A stretch of 46,052 nt of DNA. It comes from Syntrophobacteraceae bacterium. GTDB taxonomy: Bacteria; Desulfobacterota; Syntrophobacteria; Syntrophobacterales; Syntrophobacteraceae. The DNA lies in NCBI GenBank assembly GCA_031292195.1, contig JARLHP010000192.1:1-46052 (forward strand), given 5' to 3'. Position numbers and translations under genes: made by a program. Shown here in pieces: positions 19,517 through 36,404 of the stretch. Each line of letters opens with the position of its first letter. Positions within the stretch are counted from its first letter, which is position 1. The notes under the pieces were generated by a model. The model did no database searches and was not told the DNA's origin. It worked only from the letters and a program-made list of their open reading frames with translations.

Positions 19517-21103
19517 GTGACGATGAGCGACCACAAGGGCTTGAAGGTACTGTTGATCGACGATGACCCGGGTATCCGCAAAGTGATGACCATAGCGCTT
19601 GAAGATCAGGGCCACGAGGTCATTTCGGCCGCGGACGGCAAGGCGGGGTTCGATTTGTTCACCAGCGAGTCTCCCGACATTGTGATCACCGATATTCGGA
19701 TGCCGGGCATGGACGGCATGGAGGTTTTAAAGAAAATCAAGAAGATGGACCCCGAAAAGGAAGTGATCGTGGCCACTGCGGCCACCGATATGAATTACGC
19801 GGTGGAGGCCCTGCGGCTCGATGCTTCGGATTTCATGCTCAAGCCCATAAGCGAGCAGGCCCTGTCCATTGCCATCAAACGGGCCCAGGAAAGATTTTCC
19901 ACCCGAAGGGAGCTGAGGGATTACACCGCTCTTATCGAGGAGCGGTGGATGGAGACAACCGAGGAACTGGCCCGGACCTTCCAGACACAAAAGCTGCTGA
20001 TCGAAAGCTCGATAGACGGAATAATTGCCGGCGACCAGTCCGGCCGGATAATCATTTTTAACAAGAGCATGGAAAAGATGCTCGGCTATTCCCGGAAGGA
20101 TATGATCGGGGAGGCGATGATCGACAGCCTGTTTTGCGCCGGTGAAGCCGACAAATTCAGGGAAGCGCTGGCATCGGGCAAACTGGGAGGCAAGGGCAGG
20201 CTCTTCCTGCACGAATGCCTGCTGGAAGGCAAGGACGGCTCGCGAATTCCCGTGCAGCTTTCGGCAGCCGAACTGGTCCATGAAGAGGAGCGGGTCGGTC
20301 TGGTCTGTTTCGTCAGAGACGAACGGGAGATCAGAAAATTGACACAGGAAGTGGCCGACCAGGCCAGGATGCTTCATCAGGACAAAATGATCTCGCTCGG
20401 CAAGCTTGCCGCCAGCGTGGTCCATGAAATCAACAACCCGCTGGCGGGCATTCTCAATTATGCCCGGCTGATGAGCAAGATACTTTCGCGCGGCGCCCTT
20501 TCCGCGGACTCCACGGAAAAGTTTCAGGGCTACCTGTCGCTCATGCAAAGTGAACTGGAGCGCTGCGCCAAGATTGTGGCCAACCTGCTGGCCTTTTCCC
20601 GAAAATCCAAACTGGAGTTCGGACCTGTGGACTTTAACGAACTCCTGTTGAACTGCATCAATTTGAGCGGGCACAAACTGAGCCTTCAAAACATACGGGT
20701 CGATACACACCTGGCCCGGGAGTTGCCCATGATTCAGGGCGATTTCAGCCAACTCCAGCAGTGCGTGATAAACCTGATTTTCAATGCCGTGGATGCCATG
20801 CCCGATGGCGGGACACTATTTTTCAGCAGCACGCTGGAAGCGGGCAAAAACCTCATTCGCATCACGGTCAAAGACTCGGGGTGCGGCATTTCCAGGCATG
20901 ACCTCCCCTACATTTTCGATCCTTTCTTTACCACCAAAACAGTGGGAAAGGGGGTGGGCCTGGGGCTTTCGACCTCCTTTGGCATTATCGACAGGCACAA
21001 AGGCACTATTCACGTTAAGAGCGAACCGGGGCAGGGGGCCGAATTCGTCATAGAGCTTCCCGTCAAGGCAGCTACTCCTCCGGTTTCAATTCAAACTTCC
21101 TGA
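19517..21103 (+). CDS. REC-PAS hybrid histidine kinase
   Basis: A 528-residue soluble kinase: an N-terminal receiver (about 10-125; acidic D15-D17, phospho-acceptor D59 in V-I-T-D-I-R-M-P-G-M-D-G, K109 in L-K-P-I), a coiled linker, a PAS domain (about 155-270), a HisKA helix with H303 in V-V-H-E-I-N-N-P-L-A-G, and HATPase_c (N-L-I-F-N-A-V-D-A-M, G-V-G-L-G-L-S-T). It has no transmembrane segment. The GTG at 19517 has GGGAG about six bases upstream; ATG 19523 is the other choice. Its 3' end overlaps the 3' end of the NtrC-type regulator on the other strand by 32 bases. The facing arrangement suggests that the kinase and the regulator belong to one signalling set. Confidence 0.92.
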   Translation: MTMSDHKGLKVLLIDDDPGIRKVMTIALEDQGHEVISAADGKAGFDLFTSESPDIVITDIRMPGMDGMEVLKKIKKMDPEKEVIVATAATDMNYAVEALRLDASDFMLKPISEQALSIAIKRAQERFSTRRELRDYTALIEERWMETTEELARTFQTQKLLIESSIDGIIAGDQSGRIIIFNKSMEKMLGYSRKDMIGEAMIDSLFCAGEADKFREALASGKLGGKGRLFLHECLLEGKDGSRIPVQLSAAELVHEEERVGLVCFVRDEREIRKLTQEVADQARMLHQDKMISLGKLAASVVHEINNPLAGILNYARLMSKILSRGALSADSTEKFQGYLSLMQSELERCAKIVANLLAFSRKSKLEFGPVDFNELLLNCINLSGHKLSLQNIRVDTHLARELPMIQGDFSQLQQCVINLIFNAVDAMPDGGTLFFSSTLEAGKNLIRITVKDSGCGISRHDLPYIFDPFFTTKTVGKGVGLGLSTSFGIIDRHKGTIHVKSEPGQGAEFVIELPVKAATPPVSIQTS

Positions 21104-22426: not shown

Positions 22427-23935
22427 TCATTGAGTCGGGCAGGCGAGCGGAAACTTCAAAATGAAGCGCGAGCCGCTCCCCTCTTCACTTCTGACGTAAA
22501 CCGTGCCCCCGTGCTCCTTGACTATTCCGTAGACCACGGAAAGCCCCAGCCCCACCCCCTTGTCGTGGCTCTTGGTCGAAAAAAAAGGCTCGAAGATCAA
22601 CGGTATGATCTCCCGGGGAATACCCGAGCCGTTATCGATCACCTCGACCCGGATCATGGAGGCAGACCCGTCGGCCCGCGATGTCCTCAGAAGCAGTTCG
22701 CCCCCCTCGGGCATGGCGTCGGCGGCGTTAAAGATGAGATTCAAAAGGCACTGCTCTATCTGGCTGGGATCTCCGACTATTACGGGCAGGTCCGGGGCCA
22801 GTTCGGTCCTGGCCGTTATTTCCTGGGAGTCGAGGCGAAAACGCACGAAATCGAGCACTCTCGCAATGAGCCCGTTTACCTGAAACTGGCTGCGAACCCC
22901 CCTGGCCTGCCGTGAAAAATGGAGCAGGTCCCTCACTATGGTGCTGCACCGGGCGGATTCGGAGTCGATCAGCCCCAGGTAATAGATGTATCTTTGCCTG
23001 GCCTCGGCATCGGTCTTGCCCGCTTCGAGTTCCTCGCGCACCAGGCGGGCCAGCGCGTTGATCCCGGTGAGAGGGTTGTTTATCTCGTGGACCGCGCTGG
23101 CCGCCATCTGCCCTAGAGATATCATCTTCTCCTCATAGACCAGCCTCATGAGGTCCTGTTTGAGGGCCGAGACCTTCTGCTCGACCTTTTTCTCCATCTC
23201 ATCGGTTATATCCCGAAATATTTCCACAATCAGTTCTATGCGCCCGCCGGCGGTCTTGAGCGGCACTGCCGTAATTTCCTGGTAGCGGCCCAAACCCGGC
23301 CCGCCGGCCCCCTCCAAAATGGCGTGGGCCACGTCCCCGGTCTCCAGACAGCGCCCGGCCGGGCAAAAGAACCCCTCTCCGCGGCACTGCGTGGGCGAGC
23401 CCAATGCGACGTCATGGCAATATTTGCCCACCATGTCGTCTTTGCTCATGTGGGCGGCCGTAAGAAAGGCTTCGTTGGCGTCGAGCAGTTTGAAATCGGG
23501 CTGCATGACCAGCACCCAGTCGCGCAACCCCATGAAAAGGCTGTCCATGATGCCTTCGACCTGGTTGATCTGGCACTTGGCGAACTGGTTTTCTTCACTC
23601 AGGCACAGCACATCTCCGAAAATCCGGGACAGGGCGGATTCCAAAACGCGCACCCTGGCAGGCTTGTGCCTCAGAAAATCCTCCAGCAAGTCCGCCTTCC
23701 CGGTCAGCTCTATTACCAGATCGAGGTTATTGATCTCGTAGAAGTCTTCGTAATCCGTAGTGACCAAAATTTTCTTTTCCCGGGCAAGTCGCATTCCGGG
23801 AGCTTCCGGATCGGGGTCGGCCACGGCCACAATTTCGGCGCCAAGTTTGGGGAACCGCAGCGCGTCAAACATCTCCAGGAACGCCCGGCAGCGTTTGCCT
23901 CCCCCGATTATGGCAATTTTCATCGGTTTTTCCAT
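22427..23935 (-). CDS. Histidine kinase with N-terminal Rossmann domain and four-Cys PAS
   Basis: A 502-residue soluble kinase. Residues 5-110 form a Rossmann domain (K-I-A-I-I-G-G-G-K-R-C-R, E-I-V-A-V-A-D-P-D-P, L-D-L-V-I-E-L-T-G) like those of NAD(P)-binding dehydrogenases. A PAS domain (about 125-245) contains C173, C184, C191 and C196 (K-Y-C-H-D-V, T-Q-C, F-F-C-P-A-G-R-C), which could hold a metal or act as a thiol switch. HisKA H283 lies in A-V-H-E-I-N-N-P-L-T-G; HATPase_c follows. GAGG precedes the ATG at 23935. The gene runs directly into the NtrC-type regulator gene. A kinase reading pyridine-nucleotide or redox state is a reasonable inference. Confidence 0.92.
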   Translation of the reverse strand: MEKPMKIAIIGGGKRCRAFLEMFDALRFPKLGAEIVAVADPDPEAPGMRLAREKKILVTTDYEDFYEINNLDLVIELTGKADLLEDFLRHKPARVRVLESALSRIFGDVLCLSEENQFAKCQINQVEGIMDSLFMGLRDWVLVMQPDFKLLDANEAFLTAAHMSKDDMVGKYCHDVALGSPTQCRGEGFFCPAGRCLETGDVAHAILEGAGGPGLGRYQEITAVPLKTAGGRIELIVEIFRDITDEMEKKVEQKVSALKQDLMRLVYEEKMISLGQMAASAVHEINNPLTGINALARLVREELEAGKTDAEARQRYIYYLGLIDSESARCSTIVRDLLHFSRQARGVRSQFQVNGLIARVLDFVRFRLDSQEITARTELAPDLPVIVGDPSQIEQCLLNLIFNAADAMPEGGELLLRTSRADGSASMIRVEVIDNGSGIPREIIPLIFEPFFSTKSHDKGVGLGLSVVYGIVKEHGGTVYVRSEEGSGSRFILKFPLACPTQ

Positions 23936-25638: not shown

Positions 25639-25654
25639 TGGCATGTATCTTGCT
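25639..25654 (+). promoter_or_regulatory. Sigma-54 (-24/-12) promoter of the Hdr cluster
   Basis: TGGCATGTATCTTGCT matches TGGCACGnnnnTTGCW with one change, and the GG-to-GC spacing of 10 bases is exact. Transcription would start near 25666, leaving a leader of about 90 bases before the ATG at 25759. An NtrC-family activator is encoded at 21072-22418. Confidence 0.75.
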
Positions 25655-26008: not shown

Positions 26009-29000
26009 ATGCGTCCAAGGATCGGGTTTTATATCTGCCATTGTGGAACGAACATCGCCGGCAAGGTCGTGGTAGCGGAAGTGCGCGACTCTATGGAGCA
26101 TGCCAAAAACGTGGTCGTAGCCCGCGACTACAAATTCATGTGCTCGGACCCCGGCCAGGAGATGATCCAGAAAGACATAAAAGAACTGGGTCTCAATCGG
26201 GTGGTCGTGGCGGCGTGTTCCCCCAGGCTCCACGAGAAGACCTTCCAGAACGCCTGCCGGAGGGCCGGCCTCAACCCCTATTTTTTTCAGCAGGCCTGCG
26301 TTCGGGAACATTGCTCCTGGGTTACCAAGGACCCGGCCGAGGCCACGGAGAAGGCCAAGAGTCTGGCCATGGGCGCCATCAGCCGGGTTGGTTTTCACGA
26401 GACCCTTTTTAGCCGCGAAGTGAGCGTCAACCCCGACGTACTGGTTGTAGGGGCTGGAATCGCCGGCATTCAGGCGTCTTTGGACATCGCAAAGTCGGGC
26501 TGCAAGGTTCACCTGGTGGAGCGGGACCCTTCGATTGGCGGCCACATGGTCCAGTTCGACAAGACCTTCCCCACTCTGGACTGCGCCGCGTGCATATCCA
26601 CGCCCAAGACCGTGGCGGTGGCCCAGAGCCCCAACATCAATCTGCTGTCCTACAGCGAAGTGACCGAAGTAAAGGGATTCGTTGGAAACTTCAAGGTCAA
26701 GGTGCGCCGCAAGCCTCGCTATGTCATGGAAGACAAATGCACGGGGTGCGGCATATGCGCCGAGCACTGCCCGGTTACGGTCCCCAACCGATTCGACGAA
26801 AACCTGGGCCAGCGCAAGGCCGTCTACAGGTTTTTCCCCCAGGCGGTGCCCATAACATTTGCCATCGAAAAGAAGGACACCGCGCCCTGCAGGACGACCT
26901 GCCCGGCCGGGGTAAACGTTCAGGGCTACACCCAGCTGATAGGCCAGGGCAAATATAAGGAAGCCGTCCAGCTGATCATGGAGCGGCTGCCTCTTCCCGG
27001 CGTGCTTGGCCGGGTTTGCCCCCATGCCTGTGAATCCAGCTGCCGCAGAGCTGAAGTCGAATCGCCCATCTCCATTAGAGAGCTCAAACGCTTTGCGGCG
27101 GACCGGGTTGACCTCGAAGACATCCCCCTGCCGCAAATAGAAGACAGGCCCGAGCGGGTGGCGGTTATAGGTTCGGGGCCGGCCGGGCTCACGGCGGCTT
27201 ATTATCTGAGGCTAAAAGGCTATGGCGTCACCATATTCGAGGCCCTGCCGGCGCCCGGGGGAATGCTGAGAGTCGGAATTCCCGACTACCGCCTTCCCCC
27301 CGAGGTTTTGGACCGCGAGATAAACTACATTTTGCGGTTGGGGATTGGCCTTGAAACCGGAAAGCTGCTCGGCGCCGACTTTACCCTGGAAGACCTGCGT
27401 CAAATGGGCTTTAAGGCCATTTTCGTGGGAATAGGCGCCCACAAGCCGCTCAGGATGAACATTGGCGGCGAGCAGGATTTCAGCGGAATCCTCCAGGCCA
27501 CGGACATTTTGCGGGAAACCAGCCTTGGCAACCCCCAATCTCCGGGGGATCGGGTGCTGGTCCTCGGGGGGGGCAACGTGGCCATAGATGCCGCCAGGAC
27601 CGCGCTGCGCCTTGGGAGTAAAGAGGTTACCATCGTCTACCGCAGGACCCGCGAGGAGATGCCCGCCTACCAGGAAGAAATCGAGGATGCTATCCTCGAA
27701 GGGGTAAAGATCAGCTATCTGACCGCTCCGGTTTTCGTGGAAGGCTCTGAAGGGAAAGTCACGGGACTGCGTTGCGTGAAAACAGTGCCCGGCCCGGCGG
27801 ATGAAAGCGGCCGCAGGCGGCCGATCCCGCAGGAGGGAAGCGATTTTGTCATCGCATGCGACGCGATCATTCCAGCCATCGGTCAGGAACCGGACTCGGA
27901 ATGCTGCAGCGCTTCGGGGCTGGAAGTGGGCCGGCGCGGCAGAATTGTGGCTTCGGCGCGATGCGGGCAAACCTCGGCCCCGGATGTTTTTGCCGCCGGA
28001 GACGCCGTGATGGGGCCGGCCACAGTGATAGAAGCTGTCGGCGCCGCCCGTGAAGCGGCCGAGGCGATAGACCGCTACTTGCGCGGCGAGCAGATCGAAG
28101 CGGCTGAGTCCCTGTCGGTGAGTGAAAATGGAACCAATTGGCGCGATATTCCCAAGAACGCGCAGCGTATGCCGAGGGCTTCCGTAAACCGGATAGCTCC
28201 CGAGGCCGCAAAGACTTCATTTGCCGAAGTGAGCCTGGGGTTATCGGAGGACGCCGCAATGGCCGAGGCCGCCAAATGCCTCAATTGCGGGGGCTGTTGC
28301 GAATGCATGGAATGCGTGCGGGCGTGCGAGCGTTCCGCGGTGGACCACTCCATGGTCGCCGAAGAGCTGGAGCTGCAGGTCGGGTCGATCATCCTTGCCA
28401 CGGGCTTTGACACCATGGACGCCACCCGGTTCCGATTGTACGGGTACGGCCGTTTTGACGAGGTATATACCGGGCTTGAATTTGAAAGACTAAACAACGC
28501 GGTCGGGCCCACAGGCGGGCAAATCGTGATGAAAAACGGCCAAAAGCCCAAAAGTGTGGCCATTATCCATTGCGTTGGAAGCCGGGACGTAAATCACCAC
28601 GTCTACTGTTCGCGCGTCTGCTGCATGTACGCTCTAAAGTACGGCCACCTGATCAAGGAAAAAGCGGGGCACGAGACGGAGGTCCACAATTTCTATATCG
28701 ATATGAGGTGTTTCGGGAAAGGTTATGAACAGTTCTACTGGCGCCTCCAGGAGGAGGGGATCAACTTTGTGCGGGGCAAGCCTGGACAGATCACCGAGGA
28801 AATGTCGGATTCAGGTGGGAAGCAATTGATCATAAGGGTCGAGGATACGCTGAGCGCTTGCATGGTGAAGGTTCCAGTCGATATGGTGGTGCTGTGCACC
28901 GCGATGGAAGCCCGAAGTGACACCGCGGATGTCGCACGCATCTTTGGAGTCAACCAGGGTGCAGACGGGTTTTTTCTGGAGGAACATCCCAAACTGGGGC

Positions 29001-29380
29001 CGGTTTCCACGGCTACCGACGGTATTTTTCTTGCCGGGGTCTGCCAGGGGCCCAAAGATATCCCCGACACCGTGTCCCATGCATCGGGGGCGGCCGCCCA
29101 GGCCCTGGCCCTGTCGATGCGCGGTAAAGTGGAGGTCTCCCCGGTCACCTCCTGGATCGATCCCGACATATGCATAGGGTGCCAGACCTGTATAAAACTG
29201 TGCGCTTATTCCGCGATCGAGTTCAACGGGCGCAAGGGTATCTCGGAGGTCAACGAGGCCGTCTGCAAGGGGTGTGGAAGCTGCTCCGGTTTTTGTCCGA
29301 GCGGCGCGGCACGGGTGAAGCATTTCTCCCCGAAGCAGGTGTTCGCGGAGATAGAGGGAATTCTCGACGAAGTGATTTAG
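26009..29380 (+). CDS. hdrA: HdrA-like flavoprotein with inserted NfnB/GltD-type NAD(P)H module
   Basis: A 1123-residue heterodisulfide-reductase subunit A homologue. Residues 1-140 are the HdrA N-terminal domain (C-H-C-G-T-N). The FAD domain starts V-L-V-V-G-A-G-I-A-G and has C-A-A-C-I-S-T-P-K. A ferredoxin motif (C-T-G-C-G-I-C-A-E-H-C-P, about 244-255) is followed by an insertion (about 290-720) that looks like the GltD/NfnB small subunit of glutamate synthase: C-R-T-T-C-P-A-G, V-C-P-H-A-C-E-S-S-C, FAD motif V-I-G-S-G-P-A-G and NADPH motif L-G-G-G-N-V-A-I-D-A-A-R-T. HdrA sequence then resumes and ends in two ferredoxin motifs. It can plausibly pass electrons between NAD(P)H and iron-sulfur carriers by flavin-based bifurcation. 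MvhD follows 21 bases later. Confidence 0.92.
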   Translation: MRPRIGFYICHCGTNIAGKVVVAEVRDSMEHAKNVVVARDYKFMCSDPGQEMIQKDIKELGLNRVVVAACSPRLHEKTFQNACRRAGLNPYFFQQACVREHCSWVTKDPAEATEKAKSLAMGAISRVGFHETLFSREVSVNPDVLVVGAGIAGIQASLDIAKSGCKVHLVERDPSIGGHMVQFDKTFPTLDCAACISTPKTVAVAQSPNINLLSYSEVTEVKGFVGNFKVKVRRKPRYVMEDKCTGCGICAEHCPVTVPNRFDENLGQRKAVYRFFPQAVPITFAIEKKDTAPCRTTCPAGVNVQGYTQLIGQGKYKEAVQLIMERLPLPGVLGRVCPHACESSCRRAEVESPISIRELKRFAADRVDLEDIPLPQIEDRPERVAVIGSGPAGLTAAYYLRLKGYGVTIFEALPAPGGMLRVGIPDYRLPPEVLDREINYILRLGIGLETGKLLGADFTLEDLRQMGFKAIFVGIGAHKPLRMNIGGEQDFSGILQATDILRETSLGNPQSPGDRVLVLGGGNVAIDAARTALRLGSKEVTIVYRRTREEMPAYQEEIEDAILEGVKISYLTAPVFVEGSEGKVTGLRCVKTVPGPADESGRRRPIPQEGSDFVIACDAIIPAIGQEPDSECCSASGLEVGRRGRIVASARCGQTSAPDVFAAGDAVMGPATVIEAVGAAREAAEAIDRYLRGEQIEAAESLSVSENGTNWRDIPKNAQRMPRASVNRIAPEAAKTSFAEVSLGLSEDAAMAEAAKCLNCGGCCECMECVRACERSAVDHSMVAEELELQVGSIILATGFDTMDATRFRLYGYGRFDEVYTGLEFERLNNAVGPTGGQIVMKNGQKPKSVAIIHCVGSRDVNHHVYCSRVCCMYALKYGHLIKEKAGHETEVHNFYIDMRCFGKGYEQFYWRLQEEGINFVRGKPGQITEEMSDSGGKQLIIRVEDTLSACMVKVPVDMVVLCTAMEARSDTADVARIFGVNQGADGFFLEEHPKLGPVSTATDGIFLAGVCQGPKDIPDTVSHASGAAAQALALSMRGKVEVSPVTSWIDPDICIGCQTCIKLCAYSAIEFNGRKGISEVNEAVCKGCGSCSGFCPSGAARVKHFSPKQVFAEIEGILDEVI

Positions 29381-29401: not shown

Positions 29402-29824
29402 ATGGCCGACTACGAGCCTACAATCATCGCGTTTGTTTGCAACTGGTGCACATACACCGCCGCGGATCTTGCCGGGACTTCGAGGCTTGTTCAGCCTGCG
29501 AACGTGCGCATGGTGCGCATGATGTGCACGGGGATGGTCGATCCCAAATACATCATCAAGGCGCTTCTGGAGGGGGCCGACGCCGTTTTGGTGAGCGGTT
29601 GCCACCCCGGCGACTGCCATTACATCAACGGCAACCTGAAGGCCCGGCGGAGGATGAAGCTTCTTAAGGAAATCCTTCCGAAGTTCGGTTTTGACGAGCG
29701 CAGGTTGAAGATGACCTGGATCGGCGCCAGCGAAGGCATCGATTTCGCCGAGACGATAAGAAAAATGACGGCCGAGGTCAAAGTGCTCGGCCAGAACGAT
29801 TTGCGCACCCGGATGGTTTTGTAG
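29402..29824 (+). CDS. mvhD: MvhD-like iron-sulfur protein
   Basis: A 140-residue homologue of MvhD, the [2Fe-2S] subunit that links HdrA to hydrogenase or formate dehydrogenase. Cys motifs: F-V-C-N-W-C-T-Y, M-M-C-T-G-M-V-D-P and S-G-C-H-P-G-D-C-H-Y. The G-A-D-A-V-L-V-S-G-C and L-K-E-I-L lines are typical. GGGAGGAA lies before the ATG. It lies between hdrA (21-base gap) and the FrhB-like gene (30-base gap) and is clearly part of one operon. It would dock on the preceding HdrA. Confidence 0.95.
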   Translation: MADYEPTIIAFVCNWCTYTAADLAGTSRLVQPANVRMVRMMCTGMVDPKYIIKALLEGADAVLVSGCHPGDCHYINGNLKARRRMKLLKEILPKFGFDERRLKMTWIGASEGIDFAETIRKMTAEVKVLGQNDLRTRMVL

Positions 29825-29854: not shown

Positions 29855-31006
29855 ATGTCCAAGATAGGGAAAATTGCCGTACGGGACCGTGATCCGGTCT
29901 CTTCGCTGCAGGATTTTTTGAAACTGCTGCTGGAAAAGGGAACTGTCGAGGCGGTGCTGGTCCAGCAGCGGCTTCCAATCAATAACTCGGTCATGCCCGC
30001 GCTGGTGACCGACGTGGAAAAGCTTGGGTGGGCCGACCCGCTTGCCCCCGCCTTTCCATTGAATGCCGCCAGAATGCTCTCCCGGCTTACCCGCAAGCCC
30101 CTTGATGCGCCGATCGCCGCCGTGATGAGGCCCTGTGAAATACGGGCTTTTATCGAACTGGTAAAGCTCAAGCAGGGCAGCGCGGAAAATGTCATCCTGA
30201 TCAGTGCGGACTGTCTCGGGGCCTATGGCAACACCGATTACGCCAAGGTCTCGGGTCTGGGGGCAGGCACGCAATCAACACTGGCTTTCCACCGGAACGT
30301 AATTTCCGGAAAAGGGACGGCGACCGAAGACGCGGACATTTCTGCCGCCTGCAAATCCTGCGAGCATCCGGTCGCCGATAACGCCGATGTCACAATCGGC
30401 CTTCTGGGAACCAACCTAGAGGAGAGCCTGATCCTTATCGCCAATACGCAAAAAGGGCGAAAGCTCCTGGACGATCTGGGCGTAAAGGAAGAAGACGAGT
30501 CGCTTGATCTCAGGCGGAAAGCCGTGGAGGGACTGCTGAGCGAGCGCGTGGCCTACCGGGACCGGATGTTCGAGCGCACCTCGGCGGCGGTCTCCGACAT
30601 GGAAAAGCTCATGAACTACCTTGGCGCCTGCGTCAACTGCTACAACTGCCGGGTGGCCTGCCCGGTTTGCTATTGCCGCGAGTGTGTCTTCACAACCGAT
30701 GTGTTCGATCATGAACCGGCGCAGTATCTGCGCTGGGCCAAACGCAAAGGCGCTCTCAAAATGCCCACCGATACCGTTTTTTACCATCTGACGCGCCTTG
30801 CCCACATGAGTGCGGCCTGCATTGGATGCGGGCAGTGTTCCAACGCCTGCCCTAACGAAGTGCCGGTAATGGAGCTTTTCCGGACCGTCGCCCATGGGGT
30901 CCAGGGGGTCTTCGGCTACTCCGCCGGCGCAAGTCTGGAAGAAGAGCCTCCCCTGTCCGTTTTTCATGAGAAGGAATTCTCCGAGGTAACCGGTGGAATC
31001 GATTAG
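29855..31006 (+). CDS. FrhB/FdhB-like iron-sulfur flavoprotein
   Basis: A 383-residue protein of the coenzyme F420 hydrogenase/dehydrogenase beta-subunit type. R-P-C-E-I-R-A-F (about 92-99) is the FrhB signature. Then come a Cys-rich stretch C259-x2-C-x2-C-x3-C with C272, C274 and C277, and a ferredoxin motif C322-I-G-C-G-Q-C-S-N-A-C-P. In related clusters such proteins carry electrons between HdrA/MvhD and a formate dehydrogenase or hydrogenase; here no catalytic dehydrogenase is in view. It also has HdrC-like ferredoxin features. It starts 30 bases after mvhD and ends 20 bases before the second hdrA. Confidence 0.85.
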   Translation: MSKIGKIAVRDRDPVSSLQDFLKLLLEKGTVEAVLVQQRLPINNSVMPALVTDVEKLGWADPLAPAFPLNAARMLSRLTRKPLDAPIAAVMRPCEIRAFIELVKLKQGSAENVILISADCLGAYGNTDYAKVSGLGAGTQSTLAFHRNVISGKGTATEDADISAACKSCEHPVADNADVTIGLLGTNLEESLILIANTQKGRKLLDDLGVKEEDESLDLRRKAVEGLLSERVAYRDRMFERTSAAVSDMEKLMNYLGACVNCYNCRVACPVCYCRECVFTTDVFDHEPAQYLRWAKRKGALKMPTDTVFYHLTRLAHMSAACIGCGQCSNACPNEVPVMELFRTVAHGVQGVFGYSAGASLEEEPPLSVFHEKEFSEVTGGID

Positions 31007-31026: not shown

Positions 31027-34000
31027 ATGGAAACAAAAACCGGTTCAGCCCTGGTGATCGGGGCCGGGATCAGTGGAATCCGGTCGGCCCTGGACCTGGC
31101 TGAAATGAATTACCGTGTTTTCCTGATAGATAAATCGCCGCACATCGGGGGCATCCTAAGCCAGTTGGATTATCAATTCCCGACCGATCACTGCGGTATG
31201 TGTAAGATGCTCCCGACCCTCGGGCGGGATGCTTCGTCCCAGTTTTGCCTGAGAAAAGGGCTGTTCCACGAAAATATCGAAGTGCTGCCCGCTACCGAAA
31301 TGACCGCGCTGGACGGAGAGCCCGGAAATTTCAAGGTAACCCTGGACTCGGCGCCCTCTTTTATCGATCCGGAAAAGTGCATCGGCTGCGGGCGCTGTTC
31401 GGCTGTTTGCCCTGTCGATGTGCCCGATAAGTTCAACGGGGGCCTCACAAAGCGAAAAGCGGTCTATCTGCCGGTCCCGCACAACATCCCCAATCGCTTT
31501 ACGATCGATATCGCCGCCTGCACGCGGTGCGGGGAATGCGAAAAGGCCTGCCCGACGGGCGCCATCGACCTGAGGACCGAGGCCAGGCGAGCCTTTAAAA
31601 TCCTGGTGGTCGATGACGAACTGGTGGTTCGTGATTCACTGAAGGAATGGCTCCTGGTGGACGGTTTCTCCGTCGACATGGCCGAGTCGGGGGCCGAAGC
31701 CATTGATCTTCTTTCCGCCAACGAATACGGCCTGGTGCTCCTGGACGTTAAAATGCCCGGCATGGACGGGGTCGAGGCCCTCCAGATCATCCGGGAAATG
31801 AAACCGGACCTGCCCGTGCTGATGATGACCGCCTATGCCACGGTGGAGACCGCCGTGCAGGCCATGAAAATCGGGGCCAACGAATACCTGATGAAGCCTT
31901 TCGATATCGAGGCCCTGAGCGCCAAGGTCATACAGCAGTATGAACGTACGGTGACCGTGAAGGGGCGGGTGATCGAGGTCGGGGCGGTCATCATGGCCGC
32001 TGGTTCGGACTTCTGCGACCCGGCTAAAGACCCGGGCGCCTTTGGATACAATTACCCGAACGTTGTGACCGGTCTGCAGTTTGAACGGGTGGTGAGCGGT
32101 TCGGGGCTTGGCCAGGGCAAGCTCATTCGCCCCTCCGACGGCAAGCCCGCCCGAAAGATAGCCTTCCTGCAGTGCGTGGGGTCGAGGGATCTCCAACAAA
32201 AGGCCGATTACTGTTCTTCGGTCTGCTGCATGTTTTCCATAAAAGAGGCGCTGCTGGCCAAGGCCAAATCCGGGGGCGAGGCCGATACGGCCATCTTCTA
32301 CATGGACATGCGAACCTTCGGAAAAGATTTCCAGCGCTACCGCGACGCAGCGGAAAAGGAATCGGGGGTTCGTTTCATAAGGAGCCGCGTCCATACGATC
32401 GAGCCGGGCGTAGACGGTTCTCTTCTGCTCCATTATGTCGACGGCCAAGGCGCGCAGCAAGAGGAAACGTTCGATATAGTGGTCCTGGCCGCGGGGCAAA
32501 GACCTGCCAAAGGCACCTGGGACCTTGCGCAGTCGGCGGGAATAGAATTAAACCCGGCCGGATTTTGCCGAACGGACGAACTCTTTCAAAGCAGGAGCAG
32601 CAGGGAAGGCGTATTTGCCGGAGGGTCGTTTTCGGGACTTAGGGACATCTCCGAATCGGTCATCCAGGCCGGGTCGGCTTCTCTTGAAGCCTCGATGCTG
32701 ATTCGCGCCAAGGGGGGAATGCCGAAAGTTTCCGGGGAAAACGGAGCGGCTCTCCAGGATGTCTCCAAGGATTTACCGAAGCTGGCCGTTGCCCTTTGCG
32801 CCTGTGGAAGCTCTCTTGGCGGAGGGGTGGACCTCGAATCGCTGGGAAAGGGCCTCTCCCGCTGGGACCCGTCGCTCCGAGTGTTTCAAATCGAGCGGGT
32901 CTGCACACTGTCCGGCAGGAAGACGCTTTTGGAAAACATGAGGGAGTCCGGCTGTAACATGATTTCTATCGGGGCGTGCATGCCGTGCCTGTATGGGAAG
33001 ATGCTCCTCGATCTGGCCAAAGAGACCGGTCTTACTCCGGGCCTCATGGATGTAGTCGATATTTACACCTCGGCCTTTCGGGGCCCCGAGAGCGATCCGG
33101 GGCAGGTATCGGCTCGAGTCGAATCCTCTTTGAAAATGTCGATCGGGAGGCTTAAAGGCGCCGACCCGGGCCCTACCCGCTCCTTTAGCATCATTCGGAA
33201 AGCCCTTGTCATCGGGGGCGGGGTCTGCGGCATGACTGCGGCGCTGGCCATAGCCGACCACGGGTTCAAGGTGGACCTGGTGGAAAAAGAAGAAGGTCTC
33301 GGGGGGCTGGTTCGCATTATCGACCGCACTATCGATGGTACTCAGACGGCCGGATTGATCGAAAAGCTGACTTCCGCAGTCCGGGCCAATTCGAATATTT
33401 CCGTTCATACCGAAGTGGAAGTCGTCGCCTCAAAGTCTTATGAAGGCCTTAGTTTCCTTACCACGATCAAAACCAAGGACGGTGGGACCAAACAGCTCGA
33501 CCATGGCGTGACTATATTGGCGACCGGCGGCAAGGAGGCCGGCACGCTGGAATACGGTTACGGCAGGAGCGACTCCGTAGTAACCCAGCACGAACTGGAA
33601 GCGCGCCTGGGTAAGGGCGGCGCGGCGGGGCTTGGGTCCGTGGCCATGATCCAGTGCGTCGGGTCGCGCGAGGAAGGCAGAAACTACTGCAGCCGCATTT
33701 GCTGCCAAACGGCGCTGAAAAACGCTTTGCGCCTCAAAAAGGAAAACCCGGAGACCGAGGTCTTCATTTTTTATCGCGACATTATGACCTATGGTTTTCT
33801 GGATGCCTATTACACCAAGGCCAGGCAGGAGGGCGTCATCTTTATCAGGTATTCGCCCGAGGCAAAGCCCGTTGTGTCCATCGAAGACGGCGGAAAGACA
33901 AGGATTATGGCCCGCGATCCGATCCTGGGCAGAGACATCGCGTTGGAGCCCGACCTGTTGGTCCTGAGCACGGGGATGGCGCCAAACGATCTGAACGGGC

Positions 34001-34446
34001 TGGGAGAATTTTTCGGCTTCGAGGTGAACGAAGACGGGTTTTTCCGGGAGGCCGAGTACAAATGGCAGCCGGTGAATTCCAGGAAGCGGGGGATATTGGG
34101 GTGCGGCCTGGCGCACTCTCCGCGCTCCATTCCCGAAGCAATAGCCATGGCGCAGGCCGCCGCCCAGCGCGCCCTGGTAATGCTCAACCGCGAAGAGGTC
34201 GAAGCCGGCAACATCGTCGCCAAGGTGCGCCACAGCATCTGTTCCCTTTGCGAAAGATGCCTTTCCGCCTGCCCTTACGGCGCGCGGAGTCGGAGCGAAG
34301 AAAAGGATAGGATCGAGATCGACGAACTCGCTTGCCAGGGATGCGGCGCCTGCGCCGCGGTCTGTCCGAACAGCGCCTCGGTTGTCCGGGGCTTTGGCGA
34401 CCGGCAGGTTATGGCCATGGTGGACGCGGCCCTGGAACTCAGTTGA
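31027..34446 (+). CDS. Double HdrA flavoprotein with inserted response-regulator receiver domain
   Basis: A 1139-residue fusion. Residues 1-190: first HdrA FAD part (V-I-G-A-G-I-S-G-I, D-H-C-G-M-C-K-M-L-P) and two ferredoxin motifs (C118-x2-C-x2-C-x3-C, C165-x2-C-x2-C-x3-C). Residues about 190-305 (31594-31941) are a complete REC domain: D196-D197, phospho-acceptor D240 (V-L-L-D-V-K-M-P-G-M-D-G), T268 and K290 (L-M-K-P-F). The HdrA fold then resumes (G-A-V-I-M-A-A-G, C-V-G-S-R-D), followed by a middle domain (about 590-715) and a second HdrA FAD domain (A-L-V-I-G-G-G-V-C-G, C-V-G-S-R-E). Two ferredoxin motifs end it. The reading frame is continuous across the REC borders. It could shuttle electrons under control of phosphorylation; an orphan kinase gene lies 830 bases downstream. 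Confidence 0.92.
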   Translation: METKTGSALVIGAGISGIRSALDLAEMNYRVFLIDKSPHIGGILSQLDYQFPTDHCGMCKMLPTLGRDASSQFCLRKGLFHENIEVLPATEMTALDGEPGNFKVTLDSAPSFIDPEKCIGCGRCSAVCPVDVPDKFNGGLTKRKAVYLPVPHNIPNRFTIDIAACTRCGECEKACPTGAIDLRTEARRAFKILVVDDELVVRDSLKEWLLVDGFSVDMAESGAEAIDLLSANEYGLVLLDVKMPGMDGVEALQIIREMKPDLPVLMMTAYATVETAVQAMKIGANEYLMKPFDIEALSAKVIQQYERTVTVKGRVIEVGAVIMAAGSDFCDPAKDPGAFGYNYPNVVTGLQFERVVSGSGLGQGKLIRPSDGKPARKIAFLQCVGSRDLQQKADYCSSVCCMFSIKEALLAKAKSGGEADTAIFYMDMRTFGKDFQRYRDAAEKESGVRFIRSRVHTIEPGVDGSLLLHYVDGQGAQQEETFDIVVLAAGQRPAKGTWDLAQSAGIELNPAGFCRTDELFQSRSSREGVFAGGSFSGLRDISESVIQAGSASLEASMLIRAKGGMPKVSGENGAALQDVSKDLPKLAVALCACGSSLGGGVDLESLGKGLSRWDPSLRVFQIERVCTLSGRKTLLENMRESGCNMISIGACMPCLYGKMLLDLAKETGLTPGLMDVVDIYTSAFRGPESDPGQVSARVESSLKMSIGRLKGADPGPTRSFSIIRKALVIGGGVCGMTAALAIADHGFKVDLVEKEEGLGGLVRIIDRTIDGTQTAGLIEKLTSAVRANSNISVHTEVEVVASKSYEGLSFLTTIKTKDGGTKQLDHGVTILATGGKEAGTLEYGYGRSDSVVTQHELEARLGKGGAAGLGSVAMIQCVGSREEGRNYCSRICCQTALKNALRLKKENPETEVFIFYRDIMTYGFLDAYYTKARQEGVIFIRYSPEAKPVVSIEDGGKTRIMARDPILGRDIALEPDLLVLSTGMAPNDLNGLGEFFGFEVNEDGFFREAEYKWQPVNSRKRGILGCGLAHSPRSIPEAIAMAQAAAQRALVMLNREEVEAGNIVAKVRHSICSLCERCLSACPYGARSRSEEKDRIEIDELACQGCGACAAVCPNSASVVRGFGDRQVMAMVDAALELS

Positions 34447-34496
34447 GAGGCCAGGCTAAGGGTTTGAAATGTAGCCTCGGCAGGTTTTAAAACTCC

Positions 34497-35172
34497 TGGG
34501 CCGATATGCTCGTCCCCTGCAGTTCCTGCTACATGAACCTGCGAAGGGCCGATGACGTGATGGCCCACGACGGCCGCGCCGGCGAGCTTGCAAACCGGGC
34601 TCTGGCCGAGGAGGGGCTCTCCTATGCGGGGGGTATCCGGGTGAGACACCTGCTGGATGTGCTGGCAAAAGACATCGGCGCCGGGCCCGTAGCGGAAAAG
34701 GTGACCCAAAGCCTCTCGGGGCTTTCCGTCGTTCCCTATTATGGATGCCAGGCCCTTCGGCCCTTCGCCGATTTCGACGACCCCGGGCGGCCCCATTCCA
34801 TGGAACCTCTCATCGGAGCCACCGGGGCCAACGTTTTCGATTGGTCCATGGGGGCCAAATGTTGCGGTGCGGGTGGATGACCAAAAAAAAGAGTTGTGCC
34901 TTGATCTGGTTGCCGATATTCTCGATGCCGCAAGAGGAGCCGACTGTATAGTTACGGTCTGCCCGATGTGCCAGATGAACCTGGAGGCCAGCCGGAAAAA
35001 GATTTCCAAAATGCGGGGAAGGGCCCTGGAAATTTCGATCCTCTACCTGCCCCAGTTGCTGGGCTTTAGCCTGCGCTTATCCCGGGGCGGTTTGCGATTG
35101 GACCTCAACCTCGCCTTGACGCGCTCCTTCAAGGGCCGCCTGGACGCCATGTCAAAACCGGCGGCCATGTAG
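34497..35172 (+). pseudogene. hdrB: hdrB-like (CCG-domain) remnant, truncated and frameshifted
   Basis: The homologous frame begins at A-D-M-L-V-P-C-S-S-C-Y-M-N-L, the end of the first CCG domain of HdrB; about 75 N-terminal residues, with the first cluster Cys and the first C-C-G, are absent, and a TAA stands just upstream. The second CCG domain is present: Y-Y-G-C-Q-A-L-R-P, then K-C-C-G-A-G. After that the frame hits TGA (34878-34880). Removing one base near 34874-34877 gives C-C-G-A-G-D-D-Q-K-K-E-L-C, then C-P-M-C-Q-M-N-L-E-A and a normal HdrB end at 35172. HdrB would reduce disulfides; the remnant probably cannot. A one-base sequencing error would explain the frameshift but not the missing start. 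Confidence 0.8.
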
Positions 35173-35273
35173 GGCAGCGCTTGCAAGTAACGGGAAACTT
35201 GGGCAACCCGCTCGAAGGTGCGGCCAGGTTTCGGTAAGGGCCCCGTCTCCAGGCTGATGGTTTTTCTACCGGA

Positions 35274-36404
35274 ATGGAGACGAGCGTGGACGCGGCGGAG
35301 CGAAAAAGGTTCGAAGAACAGATCCGGAGATGCGAGAAGAACTACCGGGAACTATTCAATAATATTCCCAACCCGGTCTTCATTCTGGACCCGGACCTGA
35401 AAATCATCGACTGCAACGACATGGTTTTCGGCGTTTACGGATACCGCAAAGAGGACGTTTTGCGGAGGCCCTTCGCCGATCTTTTCGATCCGCAGGAAAA
35501 AGTCGATCTCGCCAAAGTGATCAGGCGCACCAAAACGATGAATGAGGTGCGCCACGTCACCCGGTACGGACCGGTCATATACGTAAACATTCGGATATCC
35601 CCCTTCGAATACGCCGGTGAGGCGTCCTTCCTGGTCACCACCAGCGACGTCACCAAAAGGCTCCTGGTGGAACAGCAGCTCATCCAGGCAAGCAAGATGG
35701 CCACCCTCGGAGAGATGGCCACAGCCATAGCCCACGAACTCAATCAACCGCTCTGTGTGATGAAAACCGCCAGCACCTTCATAGTGAACAAGATCAGGAA
35801 AGGCGAGCCGATCAGGCAGGATACCCTCAAGACAATGGCCGAGGAAATAGACAGCCACGTCGACCGGGCCTCGGGGATAATCAACCATCTGCTGGACTTC
35901 GGGCGCAAATCCGGGGTCAAAAGAGAAAAGGTGAACATCAACGACTCCTTGGAGAGGTCGCTGGAGCTTTTCATGCAGCAGCTAAAGCATAGAGAGATCG
36001 TGGTGGAAGAGGATTTCCAGCCCGATCTCCCCCCGGTTCTGGCCAACAGCAACCGGCTGGAGCAGGTCTTTATCAATCTTTTGGTAAACGCCCGGGACGC
36101 CATCGAAGACAAATTCGAAAAAGTGATCCATTCCCCGGAAAAGAAAATCTTTCTAAGGACGCGTCTTTTCCAGGGGAACGTGCGGGTGGAGGTGGCGGAC
36201 ACCGGCATCGGAATCCCCAAACCCCTTCTGGAAAAAATCTTCGAACCCTTCTTCACCACCAAGCGGGTCGGCCGGGGCACGGGTCTCGGACTTTCCATAA
36301 GCTATGGAATAGTCCAGGATTACGAGGGGACCATGGAGGTCGAGACCCGGGAAAACGAAGGCTCCACCTTTATCGTCACCTTTCCGGTTTCCAGCGAAGC
36401 GTAA
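35274..36404 (+). CDS. Orphan PAS histidine kinase, candidate partner of REC-HdrA
   Basis: A 376-residue soluble kinase: one PAS domain (about 20-130; [10 protein letters not shown], then T-S-D-V-T-K-R), HisKA with H154 in [10 protein letters not shown], and HATPase_c ([27 protein letters not shown]). It has no receiver and no response-regulator gene beside it; the nearest receiver on the same strand is the one inside the HdrA fusion. The ATG at 35274 has little ribosome-binding site; GTG 35286, with GGAG about 7 bases upstream, may be the true start. The co-directional position, about 100 bases after the hdrB remnant, suggests the same transcription unit. Confidence 0.9.

Follow-up and report, generated by a model that had tools for sequence, protein, structure and literature searches.

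The window, a stretch of 46,052 nucleotides from a Syntrophobacteraceae genome, encodes a type II HdrA whose chain contains a complete two-component receiver (REC) domain, and on balance I favour the reading that the activity of this HdrA is set by its built-in receiver. Judged from sequence, control of the protein by phosphorylation is likely. The gene, here called hdrA(REC), and the parts of its product are laid out as follows:

31027..34446, forward strand: hdrA(REC), a tandem (type II) HdrA with an internal receiver, 1139 aa
31060..31077, forward strand: first FAD GxGxxG motif, aa 12-17, kept in alignment A1
31363..31566, forward strand: inserted ferredoxin domain, aa 113-180 (Pfam), with eight Cys for two 4Fe-4S clusters
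31594..31932, forward strand: REC domain, aa 190-302 (Pfam, alignment, AlphaFold model), with D196, D197, D240, T268 and K290
32173..32244, forward strand: HdrA cluster Cys 383/396/400/401 of unit 1, and K406 (alignments)
32773..33171, forward strand: HdrA N-terminal-type domain opening the second unit, aa 583-715 (phmmer to 8rvu)
33190..34206, forward strand: second FAD/thioredoxin-reductase-like unit, aa 722-1060, with E858 and K898 (Pfam, alignment)
34210..34401, forward strand: C-terminal ferredoxin domain, aa 1062-1125 (Pfam, phmmer)

The original prediction of an unbroken frame at 31027-34446 was borne out by a 1139-residue translation without an internal stop. The layout it proposed, with REC between the second ferredoxin motif and the rest of the first HdrA fold and a second HdrA unit behind, is matched by Pfam, which places ferredoxin pairs at residues 113-180 and 1065-1115 and finds two FAD/pyridine-nucleotide folds; two thioredoxin-reductase-like FAD domains, the feature by which type II HdrA is recognised, are present. 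The cysteines of four ranges (C118-C175, C383-C401, C877-C893 and C1072-C1113) are invariant in 37/37 sequences, and for the inserted ferredoxin domain this applies to 8/8 Cys (alignment, n=37 sequences). The Lys/Glu pairs near flavin N5, K406/E353 and K898/E858, are conserved (alignment A3), their equivalence being assigned by motif spacing; K406 corresponds in this way to K409 of M. thermolithotrophicus HdrA, and the role of these residues is taken from the description of K409/E356 in PMC12054007.

In phmmer comparisons with the HdrA of 8rvu, residues 7-181 of hdrA(REC) match 153-317 and residues 316-505 match 327-516; further on, residues 581-754 match the N-terminal region of that protein and residues 959-1136 its C-terminal part. 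Because the flanks of residues 182-315 align to positions 317 and 327 of 8rvu, this segment replaces about nine HdrA residues, and the insertion point of REC and its linkers is the C-terminal edge of the inserted ferredoxin domain. The empty site is preserved in a REC-less tandem HdrA of the same group (L161), which reads CPTKAVDLSMEA-SERQIGVGAVILAAG where hdrA(REC) has its REC. Candidate HdrA inserts at L079, L092, L095 and L110 were set aside once their sequences had been inspected, as they are not receivers.

Pfam Response_reg matches the receiver at residues 192-301 of the protein (E=3.9e-32; model positions 1-110 of 111), and the key residues named beforehand, D196, D197, D240, T268 and K290, all stand at these positions in translation and alignment. 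The AlphaFold2 model of hdrA(REC), made with 37 sequences (mean pLDDT 85, pTM 0.85), has a full (beta-alpha)5 receiver fold at 191-309, in which helix 5 (294-309) is followed after about four residues by an HdrA strand (314-318). The model agrees with the HdrA core 8rvu_a at a target-normalised TM of 0.93, and I found no HdrA with a receiver among the PDB matches listed for it. The phosphorylation pocket (DDDTK) is intact in 33/37 non-redundant orthologues, in keeping with the conserved acidic residues that the original prediction implied, and its five residues never vary in those 33. REC is also the most conserved domain of the intact-pocket set (69% mean identity), and its dN/dS of 0.087, calculated from six congeners, is below that of every other region except the first flavin segment. 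The HdrA REC is NtrC-like, with about 47-50% identity to the NtrC receivers encoded beside the operon.

The architecture first seen in the window is conserved: it recurs, with one insertion point, in 37 non-redundant orthologues from about ten Desulfobacterota families, and each of them is one ORF, with no stop and start between the parts. These orthologues rule out a chance fusion or misassembly. A profile of the REC-HdrA junction (A2), with which distribution was searched, detects the architecture in 14/26 family genomes, 25/56 class genomes and 15/395 genomes sampled from the phylum, the last spread across nine families; the genomes compared are mostly draft metagenome assemblies. Outside Desulfobacterota, there were 0 matches at E<=1e-45 in 350 genomes of the phylum reached via a Chloroflexi locus and 0 at the same cutoff in 398 genomes of the phylum reached via Desulfotruncus, searches that had no positive control and are thus weak evidence of absence. 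Six matches in viral contigs were discarded, having only 27-43% identity over short receiver-sized stretches. In one genome (G055), the HdrA-REC gene is in two pieces (L159 and L160), broken inside REC and with overlapping query ranges; the pieces lie at two distant sites of a single-contig assembly, which may be a misassembly.

The gene belongs to an operon of conserved order, hdrL-mvhD-frhB-hdrA(REC)-hdrC-hdrB, whose other members in the window are these:

26009..29380, forward strand: hdrL, a type III HdrA with a GltD-like NAD(P)H domain, 1123 aa, the conserved first gene of the operon
29402..29824, forward strand: mvhD (FlpD), Pfam FlpD E=1.1e-51
29855..31006, forward strand: FrhB/FdhB-like iron-sulfur protein, 383 aa (Pfam, locus comparison)
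34500..35175, forward strand: hdrB remnant, aa ~73-298 only, with a frameshift near 34880 (against L021-L025)

In the window, neighbouring genes between hdrL and hdrA are separated by about 20-30 bp, which suggests a single transcript. Most orthologues have hdrC and hdrB adjoining hdrA(REC), and I was unable to find hdrCB beside it in L026, L047, L149 and L154. Compared with L021, the window lacks about 740 bp at 34447-35175, namely hdrC and the opening quarter of hdrB, and other HdrB copies in the same genome are only 33-40% identical. Unless this damage reflects an error of the draft assembly (311 contigs), the complete complex may not be made from this genome. In genome G038 the operon may perhaps be connected with fatty-acid oxidation, since downstream of hdrB at L028 come genes that, by sequence, resemble those for EtfB, EtfA, an iron-sulfur membrane oxidoreductase and an acyl-CoA ligase.

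The histidine kinase noted downstream at the outset has turned out to be a conserved partner that recurs beside REC-HdrA operons. It is listed here together with a hybrid kinase encoded further upstream in the window:

35274..36404, forward strand: PAS-HisKA-HATPase histidine kinase, 376 aa (Pfam), corresponding to the C-terminal half of the relatives' 757-aa operon kinase
19517..21103, forward strand: REC-PAS-histidine kinase hybrid, 528 aa, with a homologue by the kinase module in L130, L144, L150, L155 and L156

Within the fetched flanks, at least 20/33 intact loci encode a homologue of this kinase inside the operon or next to it; its side and the gene order vary between loci. Called at a threshold of at least 52% identity over at least 350 residues, the kinase is present in 13/14 REC-HdrA carriers versus 2/26 other relatives (Fisher p=1e-7, kinship ignored), and three genomes of genus g1 (G003, G004 and G008) have neither REC-HdrA nor the kinase. 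An intact REC is found with no kinase orthologue in G015 and in the genome of L041. The kinase is part of a module, located before or after the operon, that also holds a free REC, UspA and a REC-kinase hybrid; in G038 the contigs of module and operon share an overlap of 324 bp (97%), which probably places the module upstream of hdrL in this genome as well. At L130 and L138, a module away from the hdr operon adjoins genes that by sequence are formate-tetrahydrofolate ligase-like and FolD-like, together with a REC-PAS-kinase. Furthermore, UspA-REC-UspA proteins are encoded next to the operon at L041:12900-13950 and L150:15000-16400. In two genomes, and with moderate support, their REC is nearest to that of the HdrA encoded in the same genome, which looks as though a receiver cassette had been copied or kept alike between the two proteins; such likeness would be expected if one kinase serves both.

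The window kinase is 67% identical to residues 375-757 of the L045 kinase, and it shares with its relatives the HisKA H-box AHELNQPL and the HATPase domain (Pfam). The relatives' kinase, of about 757 aa, has two membrane helices (read from sequence), HAMP, two PAS domains, HisKA and HATPase, and between the helices lies a periplasmic CxxCH sensor that is absent from the window kinase. The CxxCH motif is found in 15/15 examined kinases that reach the sensor region and a second motif, CX4CH, in 13, which points to a covalently bound heme; Pfam Mcp40H-20_sensor matches the relatives' sensor only below cutoff. The sensor part has been lost in six genomes of the window's genus (the window and L021-L025), where the kinase starts near the second PAS.

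The orthologues that have lost the pocket are L046, L143, L147 and L152 (4/37), in which it reads AGDIT, TPDAK, DPDAH and DPDAH, respectively. They form one fully supported clade in a tree built without REC, and this clade is nested among the intact sequences when the tree is drawn with a midpoint root, so that one pocket loss is the simplest reading. Inside the clade REC is the least conserved domain (43%, other domains 53-78%), as would follow from release of a pocket-linked constraint; the model of L147 retains the whole (beta-alpha)5 fold (block pLDDT 87-96). This is a natural experiment in which the constraint on REC goes together with the pocket, yet the domain is retained. Phosphorylation is thus probably not the sole use of the domain, which probably also has a role independent of it. 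In the same four loci HdrL lacks the GltD domain, and no operon-type kinase was found in the fetched flanks; of the genomes concerned, G332 and G440 have no kinase orthologue and G040 and G104 carry one elsewhere. As the pocket was lost in a single event, its correlation with kinase linkage amounts to one data point.

A second pair of regulators is encoded divergently from the operon, and a candidate promoter lies ahead of hdrL:

22427..23935, reverse strand: HK2, a histidine kinase with a Rossmann-like N-terminus, divergent from the operon and also a neighbour in L022-L024, L029 and L031
21072..22430, reverse strand: NtrC-type sigma-54 activator (REC-AAA-Fis; Pfam)
25639..25654, forward strand: candidate sigma-54 (-24/-12) site TGGCATGTATCTTGCT, about 370 bp upstream of hdrL

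Similar -24/-12 sites lie 342-394 bp upstream of hdrL in L021, L022 and L024. The combination of an NtrC-type activator, HK2 and a -24/-12 site suggests separate transcriptional control. The N-terminal Rossmann-like stretch of HK2, IAIIGGGKRCRAFLEMF, resembles an NAD-binding domain, and HK2 is a possible NAD(H)-sensing kinase beside an NAD(P)H-linked Hdr operon.

In the mechanism that I propose, the histidine kinase would phosphorylate D240 of the HdrA REC. In many relatives this kinase appears to be a membrane protein whose periplasmic part carries c-heme-like motifs, and for that reason it probably reads redox state. The change in the shape of REC would be relayed via its last helix almost straight into the flavin-domain strand, and would alter how the neighbouring inserted ferredoxin domain passes on or receives low-potential electrons. 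The complex tuned in this way would comprise HdrL (NAD(P)H), MvhD, the FrhB-like protein and HdrA-REC, usually with HdrCB; REC would give it quick tuning, and the adjacent NtrC/sigma-54 pair would control its expression. The REC insertion adjoins the domain described as the expected electron exit and partner-docking site of HdrA (alignment to 8rvu; PMC12350162). In methanogen Hdr, electrons are expected to leave through this inserted ferredoxin-like domain, to which FmdF and MvhB bind, and a conformational change of a mobile arm has been proposed as an electron-transfer gate (PMC12350162); for type III HdrA, the proposal is that ferredoxin is kept out by an insert at the same domain (PMC12054007). 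A receiver at the edge of the ferredoxin domain and tied to a flavin strand would be well placed to change the electron step when phosphorylated. What the sequences show is the architecture, its conservation, the linkage and co-occurrence with the kinase and the pattern of loss; the phosphorylation itself, the pairing of kinase and receiver, the heme and the effect on electron flow are steps that I infer. The more specific proposal, that a membrane heme kinase senses redox beyond the cytoplasmic membrane and, through the HdrA receiver, turns on or off the low-potential branch of an NAD(P)H-linked bifurcating complex with two flavins, which would place electron bifurcation under direct post-translational two-component control, is tentative and somewhat doubtful. 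Counting against the mechanism, the free receiver and the REC-kinase hybrid of the module could be alternative targets of the kinase; moreover, G015 and the L041 genome lack the kinase, that of the window's genus is without its sensor part, and hdrC and hdrB of the window are broken.

Retention of the domain in the clade L046/L143/L147/L152 despite its dead pocket, still fully folded in the model of L147, would suit a REC that is mainly a dock or scaffold, keeping a partner (the kinase, UspA, another receiver or a second dimer subunit) next to the ferredoxin domain, with phosphorylation secondary. However, the five pocket residues are invariant in the 33 sequences outside that clade, where REC is the most conserved domain, and within it REC is the least conserved one (43% vs 53-78%); I regard such a role as conceivable but unlikely. 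It is rather improbable that REC is phosphorylated, and relevant, through another kinase (e.g. HK2), with the linked kinase serving the module receivers or NtrC. The HdrA REC is indeed NtrC-like, and HK2-NtrC is divergent to the operon in several genomes, but HK2 was not found at the loci of many carriers, and it is the linked kinase that tracks REC-HdrA across families.

The signal might also run in reverse, the redox state of HdrA changing phosphate turnover on REC and HdrA serving as a redox-reporting phosphate sink for a network of NtrC, free REC and UspA. The module does hold several other receivers and UspA, and REC is tethered beside an iron-sulfur domain; this reversal is nevertheless required by no sequence feature, the join of REC to the flavin strand suits acting on the enzyme, and I consider it distinctly improbable. 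Almost no credence is due to a neutral fusion or assembly artefact, that is, a functionless receiver captured by chance: the draft assembly of 311 contigs and the broken hdrB next door might raise the suspicion, but they are set against 37 non-redundant orthologues with one insertion point in many families and strong purifying selection on REC.

Bifurcating complexes must avoid short-circuit, and little is understood of how cells raise or lower their activity. Among known systems, type II HdrA (PMC12054007) likewise has two FAD units, inserted and C-terminal ferredoxin domains and both key K/E positions, as well as MvhD and FdhB-like neighbours. That survey, however, concerns archaea and leaves receivers and response regulators unmentioned in its main text, and hdrA(REC) differs from its type II proteins in the inserted REC and in having a type III HdrA (HdrL) as partner. 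Type III HdrA/HdrL (PMC12054007, PMC2702500), the kind of protein encoded by the first gene here, also bears a foreign domain at the HdrA ferredoxin domain, although that insert is an NAD(P)H-binding electron-transfer domain and not a signalling domain. HdrABC-MvhD of methanogens (5odc, 7bkb, 8rvu) shares the core fold, the cluster cysteines and the inserted ferredoxin domain, but it has a single HdrA unit and about nine residues at the site where hdrA(REC) has 134. Response regulators with enzymatic output domains (PMC5847659) carry REC on an enzyme and so place it under kinase control; hdrA(REC) differs from these in having REC inside the polypeptide of the enzyme itself and a flavin/iron-sulfur electron-transfer subunit as output. 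The original prediction called direct two-component control of a redox enzyme unusual, which has to be narrowed: metabolic enzymes carrying REC domains are in general already known (PMC5847659), so the novelty lies not in the principle but in the enzyme and the internal position, both of which appear new. I found no published HdrA-REC protein in literature linking HdrA, or heterodisulfide reductase, to receivers or response regulators, most subscription journals being outside the scope of that search.

A conserved receiver in a presumed bifurcating subunit, together with a probable redox-sensing kinase, provides a direct handle in the form of one aspartate and natural dead-pocket relatives. 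If control of HdrA through its receiver is true, an environmental signal would act on a core energy enzyme directly, not through gene expression, in sulfate-reducer-like bacteria, and a central energy enzyme would join those thought to be under direct two-component phosphorylation control.
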